Source of the DNA: a virus
DNA: 33,055 nt
Virus record (IMG/VR): IMGVR_UViG_3300034072_001088
Location: 1 to 33,055 of that record
Strand: one strand, 5' to 3'
The notes below the pieces were generated by a model. That model was not told the origin of the DNA and made no database searches. It saw only the letters and a list, made by a program, of their open reading frames with translations. The position numbers and the translations under genes are program-made. This document shows, piece after piece, positions 2,133-29,884 of this stretch (positions within the stretch are counted from its first letter, which is position 1; every line of letters starts with the position of its first letter).

Positions 2133-3122
2133 ATGATCAACGTCAACGAAATAGAAGCCACCCCCGATTTCATCAAAGACCAGCGCGAATGGCTGATCGC
2201 GCACAAGGCGGAAACCGGCTTCAGCTGGACCCGGCTGGAACAGCCGATCGGCCGCGCCGGATCGACGCTGTCGGCATTCTGCGGTGGCACCTACAACAAG
2301 TCGGAATATGAGGGCGGCAACGATAAGATCGCCCAGGAAGTCTATCGCTATCGCCAGACGCTGAAGGCGCAGGAGCAGCTGCGGATCGAGGCGCCCGAAA
2401 TCCCGCCCTTCTTCGAAACGCGCGCAGCCCAGATGGCCATGAGCCTTGCCACCTGGGCGCAGCGCGGCCGGGTCGGTGTTCTGGTCGGCACGCCTGGCGT
2501 GGGAAAGACGGAAGGCCTGATCGAATATACCGAGCGGGCCTCGAACGCCTATTTCATCCGCTGCCGCAAGTCGATGAAGACGATCACCGCGCTCTGCAAG
2601 GCGGTGCTGATCGCCATGGGCAACAAGGCTGCGCGCGGCTCCAGCGACGATCTGTCGCGCTGGGTGGTCTCTGAGCTGAAGTTCAAGAATGCGCTGCTGA
2701 TTTTCGACGACGCGCAGCATCTGACCATCGACATGTTGGAGGAAATCCGCGGCTGGTGGGACGAGCGCGAAATCACGGTCGGCATTCTGCTGGTCGGCAA
2801 TGAGCATGTGTCCTCGCAAATGGAAGGCACGTCGCGCACGGCCCCCTATCTGGCGCAGCTGTTCAGCCGGGTCAGCCAGACGATCGTCATCCCCCATGCC
2901 TATCCCGAGGATGCCGAGGCGCTGTCCGCCGCCTGGGGCGTGCATGACGACAAGTCGGTGGGCATCATCAAGGACATCGCTTCCCGGCCCGGTGGCCTGC
3001 GCGAATGCACCTTCACCTTGGAACTGGCGGTCACGATCGCGCGGTCCAAGGGCGAGGAACTGACGCGCAAGCATATCGCCGAAGCCTTTGGTCAGCGCGC
3101 CAGCCGTCCGGTGGCGGCATGA
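2133..3122 (+). CDS. B: MuB-type AAA+ ATPase, transposition target protein
   Basis: This 329-residue protein would bind target DNA with ATP, activate the transposase and give target immunity. The N-terminal 75 residues look like a helix-turn-helix domain (FSWTRLEQPIGRAGSTLSAF), as in Mu B. The AAA+ part has a Walker A motif GTPGVGKT at residues 119-126 and a Walker B motif LLIFDDAQH with D192-D193. A C-terminal helical region (about 270-329) matches the DNA-binding end of the family. It follows the transposase by 73 bases, with GAGGATGAG upstream of the ATG. An IstB-like protein of IS21 is the main alternative, but the DDE protein style and the phage context fit MuB better. Confidence 0.92.
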   Translation: MINVNEIEATPDFIKDQREWLIAHKAETGFSWTRLEQPIGRAGSTLSAFCGGTYNKSEYEGGNDKIAQEVYRYRQTLKAQEQLRIEAPEIPPFFETRAAQMAMSLATWAQRGRVGVLVGTPGVGKTEGLIEYTERASNAYFIRCRKSMKTITALCKAVLIAMGNKAARGSSDDLSRWVVSELKFKNALLIFDDAQHLTIDMLEEIRGWWDEREITVGILLVGNEHVSSQMEGTSRTAPYLAQLFSRVSQTIVIPHAYPEDAEALSAAWGVHDDKSVGIIKDIASRPGGLRECTFTLELAVTIARSKGEELTRKHIAEAFGQRASRPVAA

Positions 3123-18186: not shown

Positions 18187-19161
18187 ATGGCCGAACCGAT
18201 CAAATGGCGTAGCAAGATCATCCTGGCGAAGATCGAGCCGCTGGCCAGCTATGGCGTGGACTCAGTGCCCACCGGCGCGCTCAACGCGATGCTGATGACC
18301 AATGTCACCTTCCAGCCGATGGAAGGCCAGTCGGTCAGCCGTAATCTGGAGCGGCCCTATATGGGCGCGCAGGAAGAACTGCCGGTCGGTCTCTATTCGG
18401 TGCTCCAGGGCGATATCGAACTGGTCGGCAGTGGATCGACCGGCGTGGCGCCGGCCTGGTCCCCAATCATTCGGGCCTGCGGCGTGGCCGAGGTCATCAC
18501 GCCCGATGGCGGCACGGTCGGCTCGGGCAAGGTCGAATATTCGCCGGTCAGCGACAATCAGGAGAGCGTGTCGATCTATTTCCTGATCGGCACTACCCGC
18601 TATGTCATGCTGGGCGTGCGCGGCACCGGCCAGATCACCGTCAATGCGATGGGGATTCCCGTCTTCCGCGTGACGCTGACCGGCCTGTTCACGGTGCCCA
18701 GCGTCCAGTCGCGCCCCACCATCGATCTGACCAAGTTCGCCAAGCCGCAGGCGGCGAGCAAGGCCACCACACCGGTGTTCACGATCGGCGGCGTCTCGTT
18801 CGCCATGCGTGAATTCCAGCTCAACCTGGGCTGCGATGTCCAGACCCGCATGCTGGTCGGCCAGGAACGGATCGTCATTGTCGACAAGGCCGAGCAGATC
18901 AGCTGCACGGTCGAGGCCGTCGTGCTGGGCACCTACAACCCGGTGTCGCAGGCGGGTTCGCCCACGGCCGATGCCCCCAAGCAGGTCATCAACCTGGAGC
19001 ACGGGTCGATCGCAGGCCGCCGGGTGAAGGTCAATGCGCCGACCGCAGTCCAGCAGCGCTTCGCCGGTCCCCAGGAAAATCAGGGCGTCGAGGAATGGCC
19101 GCTCAGCTTCTCGCCGCTGCCTTCGGTCGGCGACGACCAGTGGAAGATCACGCTGACCTGA
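18187..19161 (+). CDS. Major tail tube protein, siphovirus type
   Basis: A 324-residue, beta-rich protein. The N terminus has KWRSKIILAKIEPLASYGVD and SVSRNLERPYMGAQEEL, a pattern seen in tail tube proteins of siphoviruses and Mu-like siphophages; the middle has EYSPVSDNQESVSIYFLIG, and the C-terminal part has IAGRRVKVNAPTAVQQ. It would polymerise into the long flexible tail tube. GGAGG at 18177-18181 lies five bases before the ATG. No sheath gene is present around it, which marks the tail as non-contractile. Confidence 0.85.
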   Translation: MAEPIKWRSKIILAKIEPLASYGVDSVPTGALNAMLMTNVTFQPMEGQSVSRNLERPYMGAQEELPVGLYSVLQGDIELVGSGSTGVAPAWSPIIRACGVAEVITPDGGTVGSGKVEYSPVSDNQESVSIYFLIGTTRYVMLGVRGTGQITVNAMGIPVFRVTLTGLFTVPSVQSRPTIDLTKFAKPQAASKATTPVFTIGGVSFAMREFQLNLGCDVQTRMLVGQERIVIVDKAEQISCTVEAVVLGTYNPVSQAGSPTADAPKQVINLEHGSIAGRRVKVNAPTAVQQRFAGPQENQGVEEWPLSFSPLPSVGDDQWKITLT

Positions 19162-19283: not shown

Positions 19284-19616
19284 ATGTCTTTCGTTGTCGA
19301 TCCCAATCCCACCTTCACCCATGTCGTCAAGGTCAAGGTCCCCGTCGATGGGGGCTTCAAGGACCAGAGTTTCAAGGCGACCTACAGCGTGATCCCGACC
19401 GACGAGATCAGCCAGTATGACCTGGGCGCAGGTACGGGATCGAAGGAATTCTTGCAGCGCGCGGTGACCCACATGTCGGACCTGGTCGACAAGGATGGCG
19501 AGACCATCAGCTACAGCGACGAACTGCGCGATCAGCTGCTGGGCCAGCTCTATGTCCGCAAGGCGTTGGCCCGCACCTATTTCGAAGCGGTCGCAGGCGC
19601 CCAGTCGGGAAACTGA
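19284..19616 (+). CDS. Tail assembly chaperone (gpG-like, short form)
   Basis: A 110-residue protein with beta-rich N-terminal half (PTFTHVVKVKVPVDGGFKDQSF) and helical C-terminal half (YSDELRDQLLGQLYVRKALARTY), typical of the G-type chaperone that coats the tape measure during tail assembly. AAGGAG at 19273-19278 gives a good ribosome site for ATG 19284; an in-frame ATG at 19188 is unlikely. It ends in a TGA directly after a slippery heptamer, so a fraction of ribosomes should continue in the -1 frame to make a GT fusion. It lies between tube and tape measure genes, as expected. Confidence 0.88.
   Translation: MSFVVDPNPTFTHVVKVKVPVDGGFKDQSFKATYSVIPTDEISQYDLGAGTGSKEFLQRAVTHMSDLVDKDGETISYSDELRDQLLGQLYVRKALARTYFEAVAGAQSGN
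19607..19613 (+). promoter_or_regulatory. -1 ribosomal frameshift site GGGAAAC
   Basis: The heptamer is read in the zero frame as G GGA AAC and is followed at once by the TGA stop, matching the X XXY YYZ rule. After slipping, both tRNAs still pair (GGG AAA), and the -1 frame is open from there to 19969. Lambda uses a nearly identical GGGAAAG at the same point between G and T. Confidence 0.92.
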
Positions 19617-19969
19617 AAGACGCCGCCCGGCGCTGGGCGCTGGGCGGCCCGCCCGATCTTCGCGAGGCGATCGACGACGCGGAACAATGGGGAATCCCGG
19701 CCGAAGCGATCGCCACCCTTGAGCATAAGGAGCCGGGATTTCCGGTCTGGCCGCAGAATATGGTCATCGTCGACGCCTTCCTTGCCATCACCAGTCAGCT
19801 GCGGGCGATCCAGATCGCGCCGGGCCAGCTGCTCTGGCAGGGCTTCGACTATGCCGGCGCCAAGGCGGGTCTCGAACAATCGGCCATGCACCTCAATCCG
19901 ATCCAGTGGACCTGGCTGCGCGTGATGGAACGTGCGGCGGTCTCTGCCCTCAACGGCTATCGCGGGTGA
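19613..19969 (+). CDS. T domain of tail assembly chaperone, made by -1 frameshift
   Basis: This frame continues from the slippery site and adds 118 residues to the 110 of the short form, giving a GT fusion of 228 residues. It has no good start of its own: the first ATG (19760) lacks a ribosome site and would lose the first third. The added part has RRWALGGPPDLREAIDDAEQW, PGFPVWPQNMVIVDAFL and a final helical region (NPIQWTWLRVMERAAVSAL). In lambda, the T part of GT binds the tube protein and brings it to the tape measure. The tape measure gene follows after seven bases. Confidence 0.87.
   Translation: MKDAARRWALGGPPDLREAIDDAEQWGIPAEAIATLEHKEPGFPVWPQNMVIVDAFLAITSQLRAIQIAPGQLLWQGFDYAGAKAGLEQSAMHLNPIQWTWLRVMERAAVSALNGYRG
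19622..19648 (+). other. Frameshift-stimulating stem-loop
   Basis: GCCGCCC (19622-19628) pairs perfectly with GGGCGGC (19642-19648) around a 13-base loop. The stem starts eight bases after the slippery heptamer, the usual spacing for a stimulating structure. The GC-rich loop and downstream bases could also form a pseudoknot. Confidence 0.75.
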
Positions 19970-19976
19970 CCCAGGC

Positions 19977-22900
19977 ATGAGCCTCAAGACTTCCCTCATC
20001 ATCACCGGCGACAGCGGCACCGCGAAGGCAGCGGTCGATGCGCTGAAGGACAGCGTCGACAAGCTCAACGAAACCGCCAAGGCCGGCAGTGCGCCGGCCG
20101 ATGCAATGGGCAAGGCGGTCGATGGTGTTGCCGATAGCGCCAAGGATGCAGCCGGCGCGCTCGGCTCGCTCGACGGCGCGATCGGCGACATCGCCGGCAG
20201 CGCGGCCGATGCCGCCGGCACCGGTTCGGCGCTGGGCGGCGCACTGGACGATATCGGGACCGGCGCGCGCAATGCGGGCAAGGATGCGGGGTTCCTGGGC
20301 AGCATCCTGTCTGACGCTAGCGGTGCCATCAAAGACGCAATCAGCGGCGCGCTCGGCCTGGACGGTGCGCTCGACAATATGGGTGGCGCGACCAAGGAAT
20401 CCTCCAAGCTGGCCGGCGAGCTGGAAGGCAAGCTAGGCGACATGGCCAGGGGCGCGCTGGAGTCCTCCGCCGCCCAGGGCGCGATCGCCAAGGCCAGTGG
20501 CGTTGCCGCCACCGCCATGAGTGGGTTTGGCGTTTCGGCCGCGACCGTGGAAGCGATCCTCACTGGCGGGCTGTCCTTGGCACTGACCGCCGTCATCGGA
20601 TTTATGTCGGGCTTTGCAGCTGAGGCGCTGAGCGGCAGTGACGCGCTGGGCCAGCAGGAAGATGCTGCGGCTTCCCTGACCGAGCAGATCGAAGCGCTGA
20701 ACAAGGCGTTGGAGAAGGAAACCCGCACGCAATATAGCGCGCGGGTCGAGACGTTAAACCACGCGGAAGCTCAGCGCGCGCTTGCCGTCGAAGCTATCAA
20801 AACGCGTAAGGCGTTGCTCGAAACGGCAATGGCCGAGCAGAGGAAAACCCCGAGTTGGTCACCGGCTGGTCCGGGTCAAGCGATCCAGCAAGCTGCAATC
20901 ATGCAAGCAAATTCGGCGGTCGCTGCACTCCAGAAGCAATTGGACAGGGCTGAACAGGACCTCGCTAAAGCTAACTCCAATGTGAATATGGAGCGCCGCT
21001 ATTTCGTTGATCGTGGTGTTGAGGCCGCGACCGACCCACGCGCTCGCGCCAATCTGACGTTTGACCAGGGGCTGGATCGTCTCGATCGCCGTCGCACGCA
21101 GATCAGCGAAGCCCAGTATGCGCGCGAGCGGGCGCAGCTGGAGCGTGATCGCGCTGCCGCCCTGGACGCGGTCAGCGAAGCCGAGAAGAAGGCGAGCGCC
21201 AGCGGCAAGTCCCTGTCCAGCACGCGCAGCGCCGCCAGCGCCGCCGATCGCGCGGCGGCCGAGGCGACCAAGAAGCTGAAGGCCGATCTGGAGGGCGTGA
21301 TCGGTCGCTATGATCCGGCCCGCAAAGCGGCGGCGGATTATGCCGAGGAACTGGAGCGGATCGCCAAGCTCAAGGACGCCGGCAAGATCAGCGACGACGA
21401 CGCCACCAATTATCGCGCCCAGGCCAGTGCCGCTTATCTGAGCAAGTCGCTCGACGTATCGGGCATCAAGGAACTGGCCGAGCAGGAGCAGGCGGCGATC
21501 GACGCGTCGGGCGCGATCGACAAGATCGTCCAGTCGATCAACGATGAGACGGCGGCGCTGGGAATCCTCAATCCCGTCCAGCGCGAACTGCTCAATTATC
21601 GCGAGCAGCTGGCCGCGCTTTCGCCTGAAGAACGGGCGGCGGCCGAGGCGCGGATCGCGGGCGCGCTGGCCGAGAAGACTGCAACTGAAGAGGTCGCCCG
21701 CGCCACCGAGGAAGCCCGTCGCGCCCAGGAACAGCTTGGCAATATGGCGGTCGACGCCTTCACCGCGATCGTGGCGGGCGGGCAGAAGGCGAGCGACGTG
21801 ATCGGTCGCCTGGCTGAGACCATCGCGTCGGCCGCGCTGCAAGCAACGCTGTTCGGCACCGGCCCGCTGGCCGCGATGCTGAACGGCGCCGTCGCGCCCT
21901 CGACCGGCAGCAGCTCGCAGTCGGCGGTCAGCGACCAGGCCAACAAGGCGCTGGCCAAAACGCTGAGCGGCGAGATCGAAACCTCCATGGACAAGGTGTT
22001 CGGGACCAAGGGGTCGTTCGGCAAAACGCTCCAGAATGCCGGCCTTGGCTATGCGGCGGGCGGCATCACCGGCAGCAAGACGGGCGGCGCGCTCGGCGGC
22101 ATGATCGGCGGCGCGGTCGGCAAGGAACTGCTGGGTTCGGCATTGGGGTCGCTCGGCCAGTTCGCCGGCCCGATCGGCGCGATCGCGGGCGGGTTGCTCG
22201 GCGGCGCGATCGGCGGCCTGCTCAAGAAAACTAAGACGGGCGCGGCCAATATCACCAGCGTCGACAGCGATGCGACGCTGAGCGGCAATAGCTCGCAATT
22301 CAAGGCGGCCGCGTCCGGCGCCGCCAGCTCTGTCCAGGACGGGCTTTCCTCGATCGCCGAGCAGCTGGGCGGCTCGATCGGTTCGTTCAACGTTACCATC
22401 GGGCAGCGCCACGGCGACTGGCGCGTCCGCTCGGGCACTGGCTCGCTCAAGGTCGCCAAGGGCGCCAAGGAATTCGACGACGATCAGGAAGGCGCGATCG
22501 CCTATGCCATGCAGATAGCCATCTCTCAGGGGGCTGTAACAGGCCTTTCAGCGGCCGTTGCAAAGGCGCTTAACAGCTCGACCGATCTTGATGAGGCGCT
22601 GACCGAAGCGCTCAAGGTCCAGGAAATCGAGACGCTGCTGGGCGGCATCACGGCCGAGATGACGAACCAGTTCAAGACGTTCGAAGCCCAGGCCAAGGAA
22701 CGGCTGCGGATCGCAACGGAATATGGTTTCGACATTGTCGAGATCGAGAAGAAGAACGCCGAGGATCGCGCTGCCCTGGTCGATCAGATCCTGTCGTCGC
22801 GGATCGGTTCGCTCCAGGACCTGCTGGACGATCTGAAGTTCGGCGATCTGTATGAGGGGTCCGTTACCGATCAGCGCACCGCGCTGCTGGCCGAGATTGC

Positions 22901-23267
22901 CAAGGCACGCGCGGCGGCCGAAGCGGGCGAGGACGGCGCGGCCGACACGCTGGCGACCTTGTCGCGCCAGCTGATCGAGCTTTCGCGCGAAGCCTATGGC
23001 ACGGCCGGCAGTGAGTATCTGACCGACCGCGACAGCGCGATCGCCGACGCCCAGGCCGTCATCAAGGCAGAGACGGATCGCGTCACCGCTGCCCAGGAAG
23101 CGGCCGGCTCGACCAATGAGAAGCTGGACGAGGCCAATGATATTGCCGCCACATCGGCCGCGTCGCTGGAGGATATCAGCTCCAAGCTGAGCACGCTCAT
23201 CGACGCCGTTAGCACCGGGGCTTCGACCCTGGCTGTCGACACCAGCCTGGTGGCGCGCGGCCTATGA
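19977..23267 (+). CDS. Tail tape measure protein
   Basis: A 1096-residue protein that would set tail length and help DNA pass into the cell. It is Ala-, Gly-, Ser- and Asp-rich and mostly helical: an N-terminal region with many short helices (KDSVDKLNETAKAG), a hydrophobic stretch near residues 188-220 (ILTGGLSLALTAVIGFMSGF), coiled coils in the middle, and a glycine-zipper region near 690-760 (GGMIGGAVGKELLGSALGSLG; IGAIAGGLLGGAIGGLLKK). The C-terminal third is again helical. ATG 19977 is chosen because it follows the chaperone stop closely; an in-frame start at 19932 would overlap the chaperone. Bases about 20700-21060 use codons unlike the rest. Confidence 0.9.
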   Translation: MSLKTSLIITGDSGTAKAAVDALKDSVDKLNETAKAGSAPADAMGKAVDGVADSAKDAAGALGSLDGAIGDIAGSAADAAGTGSALGGALDDIGTGARNAGKDAGFLGSILSDASGAIKDAISGALGLDGALDNMGGATKESSKLAGELEGKLGDMARGALESSAAQGAIAKASGVAATAMSGFGVSAATVEAILTGGLSLALTAVIGFMSGFAAEALSGSDALGQQEDAAASLTEQIEALNKALEKETRTQYSARVETLNHAEAQRALAVEAIKTRKALLETAMAEQRKTPSWSPAGPGQAIQQAAIMQANSAVAALQKQLDRAEQDLAKANSNVNMERRYFVDRGVEAATDPRARANLTFDQGLDRLDRRRTQISEAQYARERAQLERDRAAALDAVSEAEKKASASGKSLSSTRSAASAADRAAAEATKKLKADLEGVIGRYDPARKAAADYAEELERIAKLKDAGKISDDDATNYRAQASAAYLSKSLDVSGIKELAEQEQAAIDASGAIDKIVQSINDETAALGILNPVQRELLNYREQLAALSPEERAAAEARIAGALAEKTATEEVARATEEARRAQEQLGNMAVDAFTAIVAGGQKASDVIGRLAETIASAALQATLFGTGPLAAMLNGAVAPSTGSSSQSAVSDQANKALAKTLSGEIETSMDKVFGTKGSFGKTLQNAGLGYAAGGITGSKTGGALGGMIGGAVGKELLGSALGSLGQFAGPIGAIAGGLLGGAIGGLLKKTKTGAANITSVDSDATLSGNSSQFKAAASGAASSVQDGLSSIAEQLGGSIGSFNVTIGQRHGDWRVRSGTGSLKVAKGAKEFDDDQEGAIAYAMQIAISQGAVTGLSAAVAKALNSSTDLDEALTEALKVQEIETLLGGITAEMTNQFKTFEAQAKERLRIATEYGFDIVEIEKKNAEDRAALVDQILSSRIGSLQDLLDDLKFGDLYEGSVTDQRTALLAEIAKARAAAEAGEDGAADTLATLSRQLIELSREAYGTAGSEYLTDRDSAIADAQAVIKAETDRVTAAQEAAGSTNEKLDEANDIAATSAASLEDISSKLSTLIDAVSTGASTLAVDTSLVARGL

Positions 23268-26200
23268 GCGTCGCCTTCAGGATTCGCGCCTGGCCCAGGG
23301 CCGCTGCTACCGGCGCCGCGATCGCGGTGTTCCTTGCCGGCGGCAATAGTGGTGCGCCCCATCATGACGGCACCAACCATTATCAGGCGGGTGTCATTGC
23401 TGATCCGCGCTTCGAAGCATCGGTCAGCTTTACCGACGATGGCTGGGCCGCGCAGGCGGTGCCCAGTGTCGGCGCGATCGGCTGGGCACCGGCCGAGCCG
23501 GCTAAGCTCGACCAGTTCACGGTCCTTTACTGGCGGGACGCCACGATCGAGGTCGACCGGATCAAGGATGGCGTTGTCACGCGCCGCCTTACCGGCACGA
23601 TCGCGGAAGCAACGGTCAGTGATGGCAAGCTGATCATCACCTGCGCCGACCTTTCCAAAATTCTGGACAAGCCCGTCACCGCTGCGACCTTCGCGGGCAC
23701 GGGCGGCATCGAGGGCGGCGACTTCGCCATCGGCCGCGCCAAGCGGCGCAGCTTTGGTCGGGTCTGGAATGTCGAGGGCCACCTGCTCGACAAGGCCAAT
23801 AATATCTATGAGTTCGGCGATCCGGCATTCCCGCTCCAGGGCTGCACGGCGCTGCGCGACATGGGCCGCGCCGGCCCGCTCGGCATCATCGCCTGGCAGG
23901 GCAGCATCGCCGCGACCCTCAATGCGCTCAAAGCCGCGACCCCCGAGCGGGGCGGCGGCCTGTTCGCGCCGTCGATCGCCTGCGCCAAATGGTGGACCCA
24001 GCCGGCCGGGCCGCTGACCGCTGACCTTCAGGGCGAGGCGGCTGGCTATGCCGAGACCGCTGCCGGCATTGCTGCCCAGCTTCTCGGGCTTGCCCAAGGG
24101 CCGACGATCAGCAACCTCGCTGCCGCCAATGCCCTGCGCCCGGCGGTCTGCGGCCTGCATATCGGCGACAATAGCGAGACCACGTCGGCCGCCTTGGACC
24201 GGTTGCTCCAGCGCGTGACACTGGGCTGGCGCGTGACGCCGGCCGGAACGGTCGAAATCTGGAACTATACATTCACCGGCCCGGTCGAGTCGCTGAACGC
24301 GACCTTCATCAGCCGTGAAAGCACCATCCAGCCGGTCAAATCCAGGCAGGTCGGATATAAGAAGAATGAGCGGGTCCACGGTGACGGCGAGATTTCCGCC
24401 GCCGTCCAGGCCAGCGATGTCGTCTATGAGGATGGCACCACCGCCGACGAGATGAAGCCGGCCGAGCCAGGCGCGACCAATGGCGCCAGCGCTGCGGAAA
24501 AGGATAAGCTGGCCCAACTGGAAGCCGATACCGCAACGGCAAAGACTAATATCGCTGCGGCCCAGGCGCAGATCGCGGCGATCCAGTCCAGCGTTGCGAC
24601 CGACTTCTCGGCGGTCAATGCCGAAGTCGATGCGCTGCAAGGCTCGCTGTCGACGGCGCAGAGCAATATTGCCGCGCTCCAGTCCGGCCAGTCGAGCCTG
24701 TCCACGTCGGTATCGAACCTCCAGTCGAGCATGACGGCGGCACAAAGCTCGATCAGCAACCTGCAGTCGTCGGTCAATGCCAGCCTGTCAGCGCTGAACA
24801 GCGATGTGGACGCGCTGGAAACACAGGCCGCCAATTTCGCCGCCAGCGTCTCCGGCCTCAATACGCAGGTCGGGTCGATCAATACCAATGTGTCGGCCCT
24901 GACCACGCGGATCGCGGACGCCGAAGGCGACATCGACAGCCTGCAATCGACCGTGGCGAGCCAGGGCGCGGCGATCACGGCGAATGCGACCGCGATCACC
25001 AATACTCAGGGATCGCTTGCCGAATATAGCCTGCGCCTGTCGAGCAACCGCCGGAACCTGCTGCCCAATGGCGGGCCGGAGGCGCTGCTACGCGGCTGGA
25101 CCGGCTCGGCGACCTGGGCGGTCAACACCAACAACAGCGAGGGCGCCTATTTCCTCTGCACGCCCACCGCCAGCGGCACATTCGTCCTGACCAGCGATGC
25201 GATACCGATGGAGGCGGCTGTCGCCCTGACGCTGGCCTATGAGACCCGCAACACGGGCGCGACCTCCTATTGCGATATCCAGTGCTATGACGCGGCCGGT
25301 GCGAACCTGATGGATAGCGGGCAAAACGCCGCAGCTTCGGGTACGGTATGGGGCGACCGAGCAAGCCGCGCCTTCACCCTCACCACGCCCGCCAACACGG
25401 CGTCGGTGCGCGTGCGACTGGTCTGTGTCGCAACCTCCGCTTCCGATCGCGCGCGCATCCGCCAGATCAAGCTGGAAAAAGGGACGACCTGGTCAGGCTA
25501 TTCCAATGACGCATCGGTCGCGCAGGCCTTCAGCGCGATCAGCTCGGCCGAGGTCAATGTCGCCAGCCTGCAAACGACCGTCGCAACCCAGGGCGCTTCG
25601 ATCACCAGCAATGCCACCGCCATCACCGCGCTGACCGGTCGCACTGCCACGCTGGAGACGACGGTGTCGAGCCAGGGCGCGACCATCGGCACGCTGCAAT
25701 CGGCCGTGTCAACCGCCAATGGCAATATCGCCAGCCTCACGACGCGGGTGAATGTCAGCCAGACGAACCTGCTGGCCAATGGCGGCCTTGAAAATGGCTT
25801 TTCTGGCGCCATCACTGGCGGGTCTTTTGCCTGGAGCAATGCACCGGAATGGGGTCCGATCGCGACCACGTCTACTAACGGAACCCAGATATTCGAATTT
25901 GCCGACATCACCGCCGTGCAGGTTGGCGCGACCTATTGGATTTCTTGCGACCCGCTCGCGCTGGGCGCGTCATCCATCTATTGCGATCTGCTGTTCCTCG
26001 ACGCCAGCGGCAATGTGCTGCTCGATGGTGGCCAGAACAGTCAGGCAGCGCCTTTCAATTTCAGCGCCAATGACACGCGCCGATCGCTGATCGCGGTGTC
26101 GGCCGTGGCGCCCAGCGGCACAGCCAAAATCCGCCCCCGCGTCGTGGCCAATGTAGTCAGCAATCAGGTCGCAGGCTTCCGCCGCGTGAAGGTGGAAACC

Positions 26201-29200
26201 GGCAATAGCTGGACGCCGTTCTCCAGCGAAGCCAGCCTATTCTCTAACTGGTCGGCGACCAACACCGCGACCGCCAGTGTCGCCAGCCTGACCACGACCG
26301 TCAGCACGCAGGGCGCGTCGATCAGTTCGGCTCAGACCGCGATCACCACGCTACAAGGGTCGGTGTCGAGCTTGCAGACGACGGTCAGCACGCAAGGCGC
26401 CTCGATCACCTCGCTGCAAAGCACGACCTCGACCCACACCGGGCAGATCGCGCAGCACACGACCGACATCGCCACCGCCAACAGCAATATCAGCACGAAT
26501 GCCCAGGCCATCACCACGGCCAACGGCAATATCGCCAGCCTGACCACACGGGTGTCGTCGGCCGAAAGCAGCATTTCCAGCCAGGCGACGGCCATCACCG
26601 GCCTGACCGGTCGCACCGCCACGCTGGAAACGACGGTCAGCAGCCAGGGCGCGTCGATCACCTCGCTCCAGACCACGACCTCGACCACCAGCGCGAACCT
26701 CGCCACCCTCACCACGCGGGTCAATGCAGCGTCCACCAACCTGCTTAAATATGGCGGCTTTGAAAGCGGCGCGACCGGCTGGGTGATTGTGGGGGCGGCC
26801 AGCTGGGGCGCGGTCAACGGCTTTTGGGGACCGTTCGTCAACACGGCCGGGCTTTCGAACGGCAATGCCGGCTTGCAGAGCGAGCAGTTCGACGCTTCGC
26901 CCGGCCAAGCCTGGACGGCATCGGTCGACGCCGAGTTTCTGGCGACCGCTGGTCAGATGTATTTGCAGATGGCCTTCCTGGTCAGCGGCAGCTGGACGAC
27001 GGTCGGCACGGTCACCAAGACATTGGGCGCAGGCTTCACCAGCACGGCCGACGGTCGCCTGCGCACCACTGCGACAGCGCCCGCCAACACGACCAAGGTT
27101 CGCATGCAGATCGGCGTCGTCAATGTGACCGGCGTCACCAACTGTGGCTTCCGCCAGGCCAAGCTGGAAGTCGGGTCGGTCATGTCGCCCTACAGCAACG
27201 AGGCGAGCGTCTATCAGACGATCCAGACCCTCACGAGCGCCACGGGCAGCCTTGCAACCCTTTCGACCACCGTATCGACCCAGGGCAGCAGCATCACCAG
27301 CCTGCAATCCTCCTACACCTCGCTGAGCGGGTCGCTTGCCAGCCTTACCACGCGGGTCGGAACGGCCGAAAGCTCCATCACCTCGCTTCAGTCGGCGTCG
27401 ACCACCCAGGCCGGGCAGATCAGCACGTTGCAATCGACGGTCGCGACCCAGGGTTCGTCGATCAGTTCGAACGCGACCGCCATCACGACGCTGCAAGGCA
27501 ATGTCGCCTCGCTGACCACACGGGTGAATGCGGCCCAGACCAACCTGCTGGTCAATGGCGGGCTGGAGAATGGCTTTGCGGGGGCGGTCACTACCAGCAC
27601 CTTCGTCTTTGCCAACAGTGGCGCATGGGGGCCGTCTGCAACCACCAGCGTGAACGGCACGCAGCTATTCGAATTCGGCGACATAGTTGGGGTCCAGCAA
27701 GGCGCGACCTATTGGATTTCCTGCGATCCTCTCGCCTTCGGTTCGTCCACTATCTACTGCGATCTGCTGTTCCTCGATGCGAGTGGCAACGTTCTGCTCG
27801 ACGGCGGCCAGAATGCGCAGACCGGCTCCTTCGACTTTTCGGGCAACAACAGCCGCCGCGCTCTTATCGCTGCGTCGGCGGTCGCGCCCAGCGGAGCGAC
27901 GCGGATCCGGGCGCGAATTGTCGGTGAGGTTGTCAGCAATGCCGTTGTTGGCTTCCGGCGGGTAAAGGTGGAGCGAGGCGAGGCGTGGTCTGGCTTCTCG
28001 TCCGAGGCCTCGATCGTCCAGAGCTTCACCGCTTATTCCGGCCTCGACAGCAGCCTCGCGACGCTGTCGAGCACGGTATCCACCCAGGGCGGCAGCATCA
28101 CGTCGCTGCAATCGAGCTTCACCAGCCTTAATGGTACGGTGTCGAGCCTGTCCTCGACCGTGTCCGCGCAGGGCACGTCGATCAGCACGCTGCAATCGGC
28201 ATCCTCGACACAGTCGGGGCAGATCGCAACGCTTCAGACCCAGATCGTGCTGGGCGGCAACCTGTTGCAGAATACCGATTTCGCGGTCGATACGTCGGGC
28301 TGGTTCTTCAACCAGAGTGGCAGCAGCCACACCGGCGCCCGCGATCTGCTGGGCGATGCCTATCGCCTGCCCAATGAGCACACGGTCGGTATTCGTCAGG
28401 GTGACACCAATACCACCGCCTATGCCTTCTGGCAGTCGACCGCCGTCGCCGTGGAGCCGGGCAAATATTATGAAGCCAGCTGCCTGGCCGCCAACGTCAA
28501 TGCCAACCTGACCATCTATCTGCGCTATCAGGATGCGAACGGGGGCACAGTCCAGGACTTCACCGCCGCTAAGACCAGCGACAGCCAGGGCGCGACATTG
28601 TCGGCCTTCCTGCCGCTGTTCCGGCGTGGCCTGGCCCCGGCCGGCGCCACCAAAGCCGTAGTCATCCTGCTCAAGAACAGCACCAAGGCTGGCAGCGAAA
28701 GCTATGGCTGGTTCATTCGGCCGCAGCTGGCCCAGGTGCCGAGCCTGACCGGTGGCCCGGTGGCCTATTCGCCGGGCAGCGCCAGCACCACGATCAACAC
28801 GCAGGCAACCGCACTCAGCAATGCGACCAGCAGCCTTGCGAGCCTGACCACCACGGTCAACACCCAGGGCGCGACTATCTCCAGCCAGGCGACCGCGATC
28901 AGCACGTTGCAGGGCCAGCAGTCCAGCCTGTCGTCGACGGTCTCGGCGCAGGGCGCGTCGATCACCTCGCTCCAGACCGCCACCTCGACGCTGCAAGGCA
29001 ATGTCGCGACCCTGACGACGCGGGTGGGCGCTTCCAGCCCCAACCTTCTGCCCAATGGCGGGCTGGAGAACGGCTTTGCCAGCGGCATTAGTTCGACCGG
29101 CGGTTACAGCTTTGCCACCAGCGCGGACTGGGGCACGATTGCGACCACGACTGCGACCGGCACCCAAGTGTTCCAGTTCGCGCCGATCGCGGCTGGTTCC

Positions 29201-29884
29201 AGTCGGGTTTACACGCTGGCTTGTGATCCGGTCTGCACCGGCTCGGGCAGCACGGTTTATTGTGACATGCTGTTCCGCGACGCGAGCAATAATATCCTGC
29301 TCGACAGCGCGCAGAATGTGCAGACGGGATCGTTCGACTTCGACACCACCACCGGCCGGCGCGGTCAGATCGCCATCACCGCGACGGCGCCTGCCGGCAC
29401 AACTAACGTCGTTTGCCGCTTCGTGGGCGTTGCGGCCAATGGCGGGACGGTCGGCTTCCGGCAGATGAAGCTGGAGCGGGGCAGCACCTGGTCGCCCTAC
29501 AGCGCCGAAGCCAGCATCACGCAGAGCTTTTCGACGCTCTCGACCCTGACCACGCAATATGCCTCGCTCTCCAGCACCGTGGCCACCCAGGGCGTCAACA
29601 TCAGCACCCAGGCGACCGCAATCACCACGCTCCAGGGCAATGTGACCGCGCTCTTTGCCAAGTGGAGCCTGGAGCTGGACGTCAATGGTTATGTCAGCGG
29701 CATGGTGACCAACAATAATGGCACCCGCGCCGACATGACGCTGCGCATGGACAAGGTGAAGATGGTCACCCCGTCCGGCCTCGGCGGTTATTGGCAGGTG
29801 ACCTTCGACAGTCAGGGCCGTCCCACACAATCGATCGGCGACGATTCCTCCGGCGTCACGATCGAGATTGGGTATCTCGCATGA
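23264..29884 (+). CDS. Giant tail-tip / host-recognition protein with six jelly-roll-like modules
   Basis: A 2206-residue protein. Residues 1 to about 390 form a compact domain resembling tail hub proteins. The rest alternates Ser/Thr/Gln-rich coiled coils (units like SLQTTVSTQGASITSL) with six modules of about 150 residues starting near residues 598, 835, 1159, 1427, 1666 and 1927, each opening with NLL.NGG or similar and ending near PYSNEAS/FSSEAS. These look like carbohydrate-binding jelly rolls. Modules 2 and 4 are nearly identical over DLLFLDASGNVLLDGGQN. The end (WSLELDVNGYVSGMV and RMDKVKM) resembles the DUF1983 region of lambda J-like proteins. It likely binds the host surface. ATGA overlap with the tape measure gene. 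Confidence 0.82.
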   Translation: MSVAFRIRAWPRAAATGAAIAVFLAGGNSGAPHHDGTNHYQAGVIADPRFEASVSFTDDGWAAQAVPSVGAIGWAPAEPAKLDQFTVLYWRDATIEVDRIKDGVVTRRLTGTIAEATVSDGKLIITCADLSKILDKPVTAATFAGTGGIEGGDFAIGRAKRRSFGRVWNVEGHLLDKANNIYEFGDPAFPLQGCTALRDMGRAGPLGIIAWQGSIAATLNALKAATPERGGGLFAPSIACAKWWTQPAGPLTADLQGEAAGYAETAAGIAAQLLGLAQGPTISNLAAANALRPAVCGLHIGDNSETTSAALDRLLQRVTLGWRVTPAGTVEIWNYTFTGPVESLNATFISRESTIQPVKSRQVGYKKNERVHGDGEISAAVQASDVVYEDGTTADEMKPAEPGATNGASAAEKDKLAQLEADTATAKTNIAAAQAQIAAIQSSVATDFSAVNAEVDALQGSLSTAQSNIAALQSGQSSLSTSVSNLQSSMTAAQSSISNLQSSVNASLSALNSDVDALETQAANFAASVSGLNTQVGSINTNVSALTTRIADAEGDIDSLQSTVASQGAAITANATAITNTQGSLAEYSLRLSSNRRNLLPNGGPEALLRGWTGSATWAVNTNNSEGAYFLCTPTASGTFVLTSDAIPMEAAVALTLAYETRNTGATSYCDIQCYDAAGANLMDSGQNAAASGTVWGDRASRAFTLTTPANTASVRVRLVCVATSASDRARIRQIKLEKGTTWSGYSNDASVAQAFSAISSAEVNVASLQTTVATQGASITSNATAITALTGRTATLETTVSSQGATIGTLQSAVSTANGNIASLTTRVNVSQTNLLANGGLENGFSGAITGGSFAWSNAPEWGPIATTSTNGTQIFEFADITAVQVGATYWISCDPLALGASSIYCDLLFLDASGNVLLDGGQNSQAAPFNFSANDTRRSLIAVSAVAPSGTAKIRPRVVANVVSNQVAGFRRVKVETGNSWTPFSSEASLFSNWSATNTATASVASLTTTVSTQGASISSAQTAITTLQGSVSSLQTTVSTQGASITSLQSTTSTHTGQIAQHTTDIATANSNISTNAQAITTANGNIASLTTRVSSAESSISSQATAITGLTGRTATLETTVSSQGASITSLQTTTSTTSANLATLTTRVNAASTNLLKYGGFESGATGWVIVGAASWGAVNGFWGPFVNTAGLSNGNAGLQSEQFDASPGQAWTASVDAEFLATAGQMYLQMAFLVSGSWTTVGTVTKTLGAGFTSTADGRLRTTATAPANTTKVRMQIGVVNVTGVTNCGFRQAKLEVGSVMSPYSNEASVYQTIQTLTSATGSLATLSTTVSTQGSSITSLQSSYTSLSGSLASLTTRVGTAESSITSLQSASTTQAGQISTLQSTVATQGSSISSNATAITTLQGNVASLTTRVNAAQTNLLVNGGLENGFAGAVTTSTFVFANSGAWGPSATTSVNGTQLFEFGDIVGVQQGATYWISCDPLAFGSSTIYCDLLFLDASGNVLLDGGQNAQTGSFDFSGNNSRRALIAASAVAPSGATRIRARIVGEVVSNAVVGFRRVKVERGEAWSGFSSEASIVQSFTAYSGLDSSLATLSSTVSTQGGSITSLQSSFTSLNGTVSSLSSTVSAQGTSISTLQSASSTQSGQIATLQTQIVLGGNLLQNTDFAVDTSGWFFNQSGSSHTGARDLLGDAYRLPNEHTVGIRQGDTNTTAYAFWQSTAVAVEPGKYYEASCLAANVNANLTIYLRYQDANGGTVQDFTAAKTSDSQGATLSAFLPLFRRGLAPAGATKAVVILLKNSTKAGSESYGWFIRPQLAQVPSLTGGPVAYSPGSASTTINTQATALSNATSSLASLTTTVNTQGATISSQATAISTLQGQQSSLSSTVSAQGASITSLQTATSTLQGNVATLTTRVGASSPNLLPNGGLENGFASGISSTGGYSFATSADWGTIATTTATGTQVFQFAPIAAGSSRVYTLACDPVCTGSGSTVYCDMLFRDASNNILLDSAQNVQTGSFDFDTTTGRRGQIAITATAPAGTTNVVCRFVGVAANGGTVGFRQMKLERGSTWSPYSAEASITQSFSTLSTLTTQYASLSSTVATQGVNISTQATAITTLQGNVTALFAKWSLELDVNGYVSGMVTNNNGTRADMTLRMDKVKMVTPSGLGGYWQVTFDSQGRPTQSIGDDSSGVTIEIGYLA

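Follow-up and report, generated by a model that had tools for sequence, protein, structure and literature searches.

Evidence for programmed -1 ribosomal frameshifting between the tail-chaperone genes G and T of a Mu-like phage

Results

Genes and features of the locus

The DNA analysed here, referred to throughout as the window, is a 33,055-base IMG/VR virus record (IMGVR_UViG_3300034072_001088), which encodes a Mu-type transposase and portal, a MuB-like transposition protein and a Mu gp36-like protein; the phage is Mu-like. On the + strand the gene order is tail protein, G, T and tape measure protein, with two overlapping open reading frames flanked by tail-tube-type and tape measure genes. 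The features of this region are the following:

18187..19161, + strand: tail protein gene, probable major tail or tube protein (PHROG 290, category tail, E 9.9e-15)
19284..19616, + strand: gene G, tail assembly chaperone of 110 aa, zero frame (PHROG 569; stop TGA at 19614-19616)
19607..19613, + strand: slippery heptamer GGGAAAC, read G_GGA_AAC, in the zero-frame phase X_XXY_YYZ within the G/T overlap
19607..19969, + strand: T frame (-1) with a DUF1799 domain, C-terminal half of the predicted G-T fusion (PF08809, PHROG 680)
19614..19616, + strand: zero-frame TGA stop, which abuts the heptamer, lies in the A site once AAC has reached the P site and may be part of the signal
19614..19621, + strand: 8-nt spacer from heptamer to stem, from the sequence and the hairpin prediction
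19622..19648, + strand: stem-loop, predicted stimulator, of 12 bp (19622-19633 with 19637-19648) including one G-U, loop TGG
19977..23267, + strand: tape measure protein gene (PHROG 10574, tail length tape measure protein)

Gene G has an AAGGAG a few bases 5' of its ATG at 19284. For the tape measure gene the PHROG 10574 match is given from codon 2, and the ATG at 19977 was read from the sequence. In relatives, the gene at the position of the window's 18187-19161 is annotated as a major tail or tail tube protein. As a separate observation, the tail-fibre-like protein encoded at 23264-29884 is 2206 aa long, and copies of an NLL.NGG.E.G-like motif (at residues ~598, 835, 1159, 1427, 1666 and 1927) alternate in it with coiled-coil-like stretches; a tandem DNA repeat was looked for in this gene and none was found.

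The shift site in the window

The zero-frame codons at the 3' end of G are TCG GGA AAC TGA and, as originally predicted, GGGAAAC (19607-19613) is read G GGA AAC directly before the TGA at 19614-19616. The -1 frame runs without interruption from 19421 as far as the TGA at 19967-19969, giving 120 codons from GGG and 118 from CTG, the latter being the length predicted from the sequence at the outset. The accompanying claim that this frame lacks a usable start also held, since a search for ATG, GTG and TTG between 19421 and 19759 found none, and the earliest is the ATG at 19760.

The + strand of the window contains 15 heptamers of the form XXX(AAA/TTT)Z, two of which are in slippery phase within the genes checked. 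Among these genes, GGGAAAC at 19607-19613 is the sole in-phase heptamer with a stop right next to it and a long open -1 frame beyond. From base composition, the per-site chance of GGGAAAC or AAAAAAC is 8.8e-5, which over ~26 gene ends amounts to ~0.002; a chance origin of the heptamer at the end of G is ruled out by its conservation in relatives. The other in-phase heptamer, GGGAAAG at 2501-2507, is internal to the MuB-like gene (2133-3122), whose stop comes 204 codons later; the -1 frame at this heptamer runs 57 codons, and it is probably a chance occurrence.

Downstream of the spacer, GCCGCCCGGCGC / TGG / GCGCTGGGCGGC (19622-19648) is predicted to form a hairpin with a dG of -27.5 kcal/mol and a local z of -2.1. 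The original prediction had placed a perfect 7-bp GC stem eight bases from the heptamer; the spacing is indeed 8 nt, but the seven pairs are only the outer part of the full 12-bp stem, which includes one G-U. The pseudoknot that had been suggested is unsupported, as the predicted loop, of 3 nt in the window and 4 nt in several relatives, offers little for pairing.

Identity of the two proteins

The window's T scores 27 bits against PF08809 (DUF1799), for which the curated cut-off is 26, and the DUF1799 profile is matched by nine of the nine members of the first T alignment. A Pfam search with the window's G gave no match; Phage_TAC_4 (PF08748) matches three of the nine alignment members of G. 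AlphaFold2 models were built from family alignments, with rows from annotated-phage records left out, and reached a pLDDT of 92.9 for T and 88.1 for G. Foldseek comparison of both models with the PDB returned nothing significant. With VIA-align, the first three rows for the G model were 3fgx, 3klu and 2ob9, with weak Z values of 5.1, 4.3 and 3.8 and an rmsd of 4.5-5.1 over 83-86 residues; 2ob9 is the HK97 tail assembly chaperone, and 3fgx and 3klu we take to be phage chaperone-like proteins. It is notable that these top rows share one likely function despite the weak Z. VIA-align with the T model gave nothing clear, and a sequence search of solved structures with G gave nothing convincing. The T family profile gives a marginal match (E 5e-4) to the C-terminal region of ribosomal protein bL20, and comparison of the T model with PDB chains did not bring up bL20. 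Together, the position in the genome, the DUF1799 domain of T and the weak resemblance of the G model to tail-assembly chaperones are consistent with reading the pair as a G/GT system.

Conservation of the heptamer among relatives

Relatives were gathered by similarity to T or G, and the heptamer was not used. Close relatives sought by single-protein scans came to few loci, and a genome scan gave none. Since the single-protein scans yielded so little and the family alignments diverged too far to be used for scanning, the main collection was made with a heptamer-free DNA pattern for the T motif QWR...GLDY, which lies far downstream of the junction, in viral contigs and genomes. To this collection a T-alignment scan and a few loci from earlier protein similarity were added, and the counts given here cover the matches listed. 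The pattern favours GC-rich codons, so that low-GC relatives are under-sampled, and annotated phages were added by hand. A query with T matches phage records numbering over 1000.

The alignment of related phages proposed with the original prediction bore it out, a slippery heptamer being present in 161 of the 161 listed loci with a readable junction. It is AAAAAAC in 85, GGGAAAC in 75 and AAAAAAG in one, that is, XXXAAAC in 160 of 161. The zero-frame stop is adjacent to the heptamer in 143 of these loci, one codon later in nine, and 4 to 28 codons away in another nine. The T proteins of the listed loci share 15-65% identity with the window's T; the T domain is conserved, with an invariant K-L that begins at the heptamer. 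With one locus taken from each of 88 clusters at 60% T identity, the heptamer is AAAAAAC in 57 and GGGAAAC in 31, with the stop adjacent in 74, although the clusters are mutually related and these counts are not independent trials. Over the rest of G and T, Lys is encoded by AAA at only 217 of 728 positions and Asn by AAC at 289 of 391; consequently, the heptamer is not forced by amino-acid conservation. Furthermore, in L032, L067 and L093, and in the annotated phages L263 and L274, a -1-frame stop immediately precedes the heptamer, and because the -1 frame opens right there, the slip would be pinned to the heptamer.

Annotated and divergent phages

The nearest annotated phages, Rhodobacter phage RC1, Rhodovulum phage RS1, Thiobacimonas phage vB_ThpS-P1 and Rhodobacter phage RcWaterboi, have homologous G and T as in the window, with GGGAAACTGA at the corresponding place; in three Synechococcus phages the junction reads AAAAAACTGA. 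The records of the first four give separate genes, with CTG or internal starts, and annotate no frameshift. In those of RC1 (L005 2507-2851) and RS1 (L006 2507-2851) the T with a CTG start is named tape measure protein, and in S-LBS1 (L009 2501-2881) the G homologue is named ABC-transporter ATPase (FepC); both names are likely misannotations. Many of the examined records give T a late or unusual start or leave it unannotated. For Serratia Smarc2 and Klebsiella Shelby, the deposited records already give a joined product made by frameshifting.

Among 17 more divergent annotated phages, XXXAAAC with an adjacent stop is found in 11. Relatives keeping both frames without a heptamer had been named as evidence that would count against the original prediction; none of the 161 listed loci is of this kind, whereas several divergent enterobacterial and Xanthomonas phages do lack XXXAAAC. 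Most of the divergent phages without it have another recognisable shift-prone site near the stop, mainly an A_AAG tetramer. Their junctions include:

Xanthomonas MK21: GGGAAAA TAG
Pectobacterium Pappous: CAA AAG TAA
Klebsiella Op1_ER4: CAA AAG CGC TAA
Klebsiella Shelby and Trimon: GCA AAA GTT TAA
Enterobacter phage N5822 (L267, ~790-820): AGT AAA AAC TAA, with a -1 TAA that overlaps the would-be heptamer

N5822 has no XXXAAAC, A_AAC alone standing before the stop; its junction may have decayed or been misread, or it may slip in the P site only. As judged by these sequences, the family keeps shift-prone sites near the stop, and the heptamer is not universal.

RNA structure and upstream signals

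Over the 88 clusters, the 45 nt that start 5 nt past the heptamer have a mean z of -1.25, compared with -0.10 to -0.33 in control stretches. This excess of structure is uneven, with z < -2 in 32% of the clusters versus 5-15% in the controls. The best hairpin after the heptamer has a median dG of -17.3, against -8.7 at a control 100 nt further on (Wilcoxon p 1.6e-11). The pairing columns of the hairpin show weak covariation in 14 close relatives, the register of the stem shifts between relatives, and the covariation score of the stem slid by +3 is about the same as that of the predicted stem, so that the exact stem is without proof. A structured stimulator is likely in many members of the family. 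On the 5' side, anti-Shine-Dalgarno pairing in the 88 clusters has a mean of -4.5 kcal/mol at 3-16 nt before the heptamer, compared with ~-2.3 elsewhere in G, which recalls the dnaX stimulator; the window's own pairing at this place is weak.

Discussion

A -1 slip before a stop codon that gives a longer form of the tail chaperone is known in lambda and in many other tailed phages. From the comparison of sequences, we consider it highly probable that a programmed -1 ribosomal frameshift joins the tail-chaperone genes G and T of the window. Most ribosomes would read G to the TGA and release the 110-aa chaperone, while a minority, aided by the GC hairpin 8 nt downstream, would move one base back on G_GGA_AAC and continue in the -1 frame. 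The product of the slip would be a G-T fusion of ~228 residues that contains DUF1799, with the junction ...AQSGN-LKDAARR.... By analogy with lambda, G would coat the tape measure protein and the T part of the fusion would recruit tail-tube subunits, neither protein being present in the virion. Since heptamer and stop stay in contact across most of the family, some of the slippage may take place while AAC occupies the P site and the A site holds the stop.

T might instead be a separate gene, translationally coupled to the end of G and starting at the CTG at 19613 or at the internal ATG at 19760. The records of RC1 and RS1 do place the start of T at the CTG within AAACTGA, and the short G/T overlap resembles a coupled ATGA junction. 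However, the -1 codon after AAA in relatives is CTG, CTA, CTC, CTT or CGC, and the last four, found in many of them, are no usual start; the CTG start was rejected because of this variation (CTG, CTA, CTC, CTT). Moreover, AAAAAAC and GGGAAAC are kept and neither is a Shine-Dalgarno sequence, a start at ATG 19760 would remove the N-terminal part of T with its invariant K-L, and later T starts are inconsistent in position among relatives, all of which makes a separate gene very improbable. Transcriptional slippage on an A-run, which would yield a fusion mRNA, seems even less credible: the runs of at least six A in the AAAAAAC relatives could permit it, but the window and 74 other listed loci have GGGAAAC, in which the longest run is three, and for GGGAAAC sites this origin was rejected. 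The T frame has no start, as might be expected if T were a dead fragment or a frameshift created by sequencing error, but the G/T arrangement recurs in the 161 listed loci with the T domain conserved, and this conservation refutes a reading that we rate as having almost no chance of being correct.

Within the frameshift reading, the part played by the adjacent stop has to be considered. The slip could be mainly a post-translocation E/P-site event that competes with the release factor while the A site holds the stop codon, and this would make the stop a part of the signal; we regard this as a serious but doubtful possibility. The stop is adjacent in 143 of the 161 listed loci and one codon later in nine, while in other collections it lies 26 to 36 nt away on average (PMC10885494), and outliers with other motifs still have shift-prone sites beside or near it. 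In N5822 (TAA_AAA_C TAA) re-pairing is possible for the AAC-to-AAA step only, and in E. coli an A-site AAC-to-AAA step is reported to be poorly tolerated (PMC4066793). Where CTG follows AAA, the next base is A, completing TGA, in 56 of 56 clusters versus 11.7% for other CTG codons in T, although this UGA excess is confounded with the frequent use of CTG as a Leu codon. On the other hand, the nine loci whose stop is 4 to 28 codons distant still have a heptamer, the first XXX is strictly conserved where a pure P-site slip would need it less, and adjacency may simply keep the C terminus of G short. That the DUF1799 tail-chaperone family, in phages of many bacteria, shares a stop-coupled -1 shift of the form X_XXA_AAC followed by a stop is rather unlikely in our estimation. 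If true, release-factor availability would set the G : G-T ratio, which would give an inefficient bacterial heptamer a use, and tail assembly would be tied to the termination capacity of the host.

A programmed frameshift between G and T would give the orphan T frame a function, and DUF1799, which in Pfam is still an uncharacterised phage protein, would be, throughout a large family, the half of a tail chaperone whose expression depends on frameshifting. Since many of the examined records misplace or omit T, a rule of XXXAAAC plus a stop would correct its annotation. The near-fixed contact of heptamer and stop, on a motif reported to be weak in E. coli, also raises the question of whether the stop aids the slip.

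The mechanism, the gene pair and the heptamer beside a stop are already known or predicted in other phages; a family-wide heptamer-stop rule for DUF1799 chaperones was not found in the literature searched. The passages on lambda in one account describe, as in the window, a small open reading frame before the tape measure gene with a -1 slip on XXXYYYZ near its end (PMC5009743), and a T half without its own start (Levin 1993; Xu 2004, cited in PMC5009743). The G/GT reading put forward in the original prediction fits the gene position, the T of the window being DUF1799 (PF08809) and the weak chaperone fold matches of G, but the shift site differs, being GGGAAAG in lambda and GGGAAAC abutting the stop in the window. 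In E. coli, heptamers with AAC as the second codon are reported to be of low efficiency, yet are probably used by IS elements (PMC4066793); the host of the window's phage may be another bacterium. One such bacterial element, IS1, has in insA-insB' an A6C motif read A_AAA_AAC near the end of the upstream frame, like the AAAAAAC relatives, but there it makes transposase, and the proteins are unrelated to G and T (PMC12428005). In haloviruses AAAAAAC and GGGAAAC have both been predicted (PMC5009743). Burkholderia phage KL1 has a predicted GGGAAAC beside TGA in gp18/gp19, as in the window; unlike the window, it has a tail protein gene between the chaperone pair and the tape measure gene, the two being compared by arrangement alone (PMC3483164). 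According to the relevant parts of their genome descriptions, Acinetobacter phage Loki has a predicted AAAAAAC adjoining the gp12 stop in gp12/gp13 (PMC5313236), and predicted chaperone shift sites in the Caulobacter phages are AAAAAAC in phiCbK and GGGAAAC in Colossus (PMC3556154). As presented in those parts, the sites of Loki and of phiCbK and Colossus are single-phage predictions, whereas for the family of the window the site comes from a survey of relatives.
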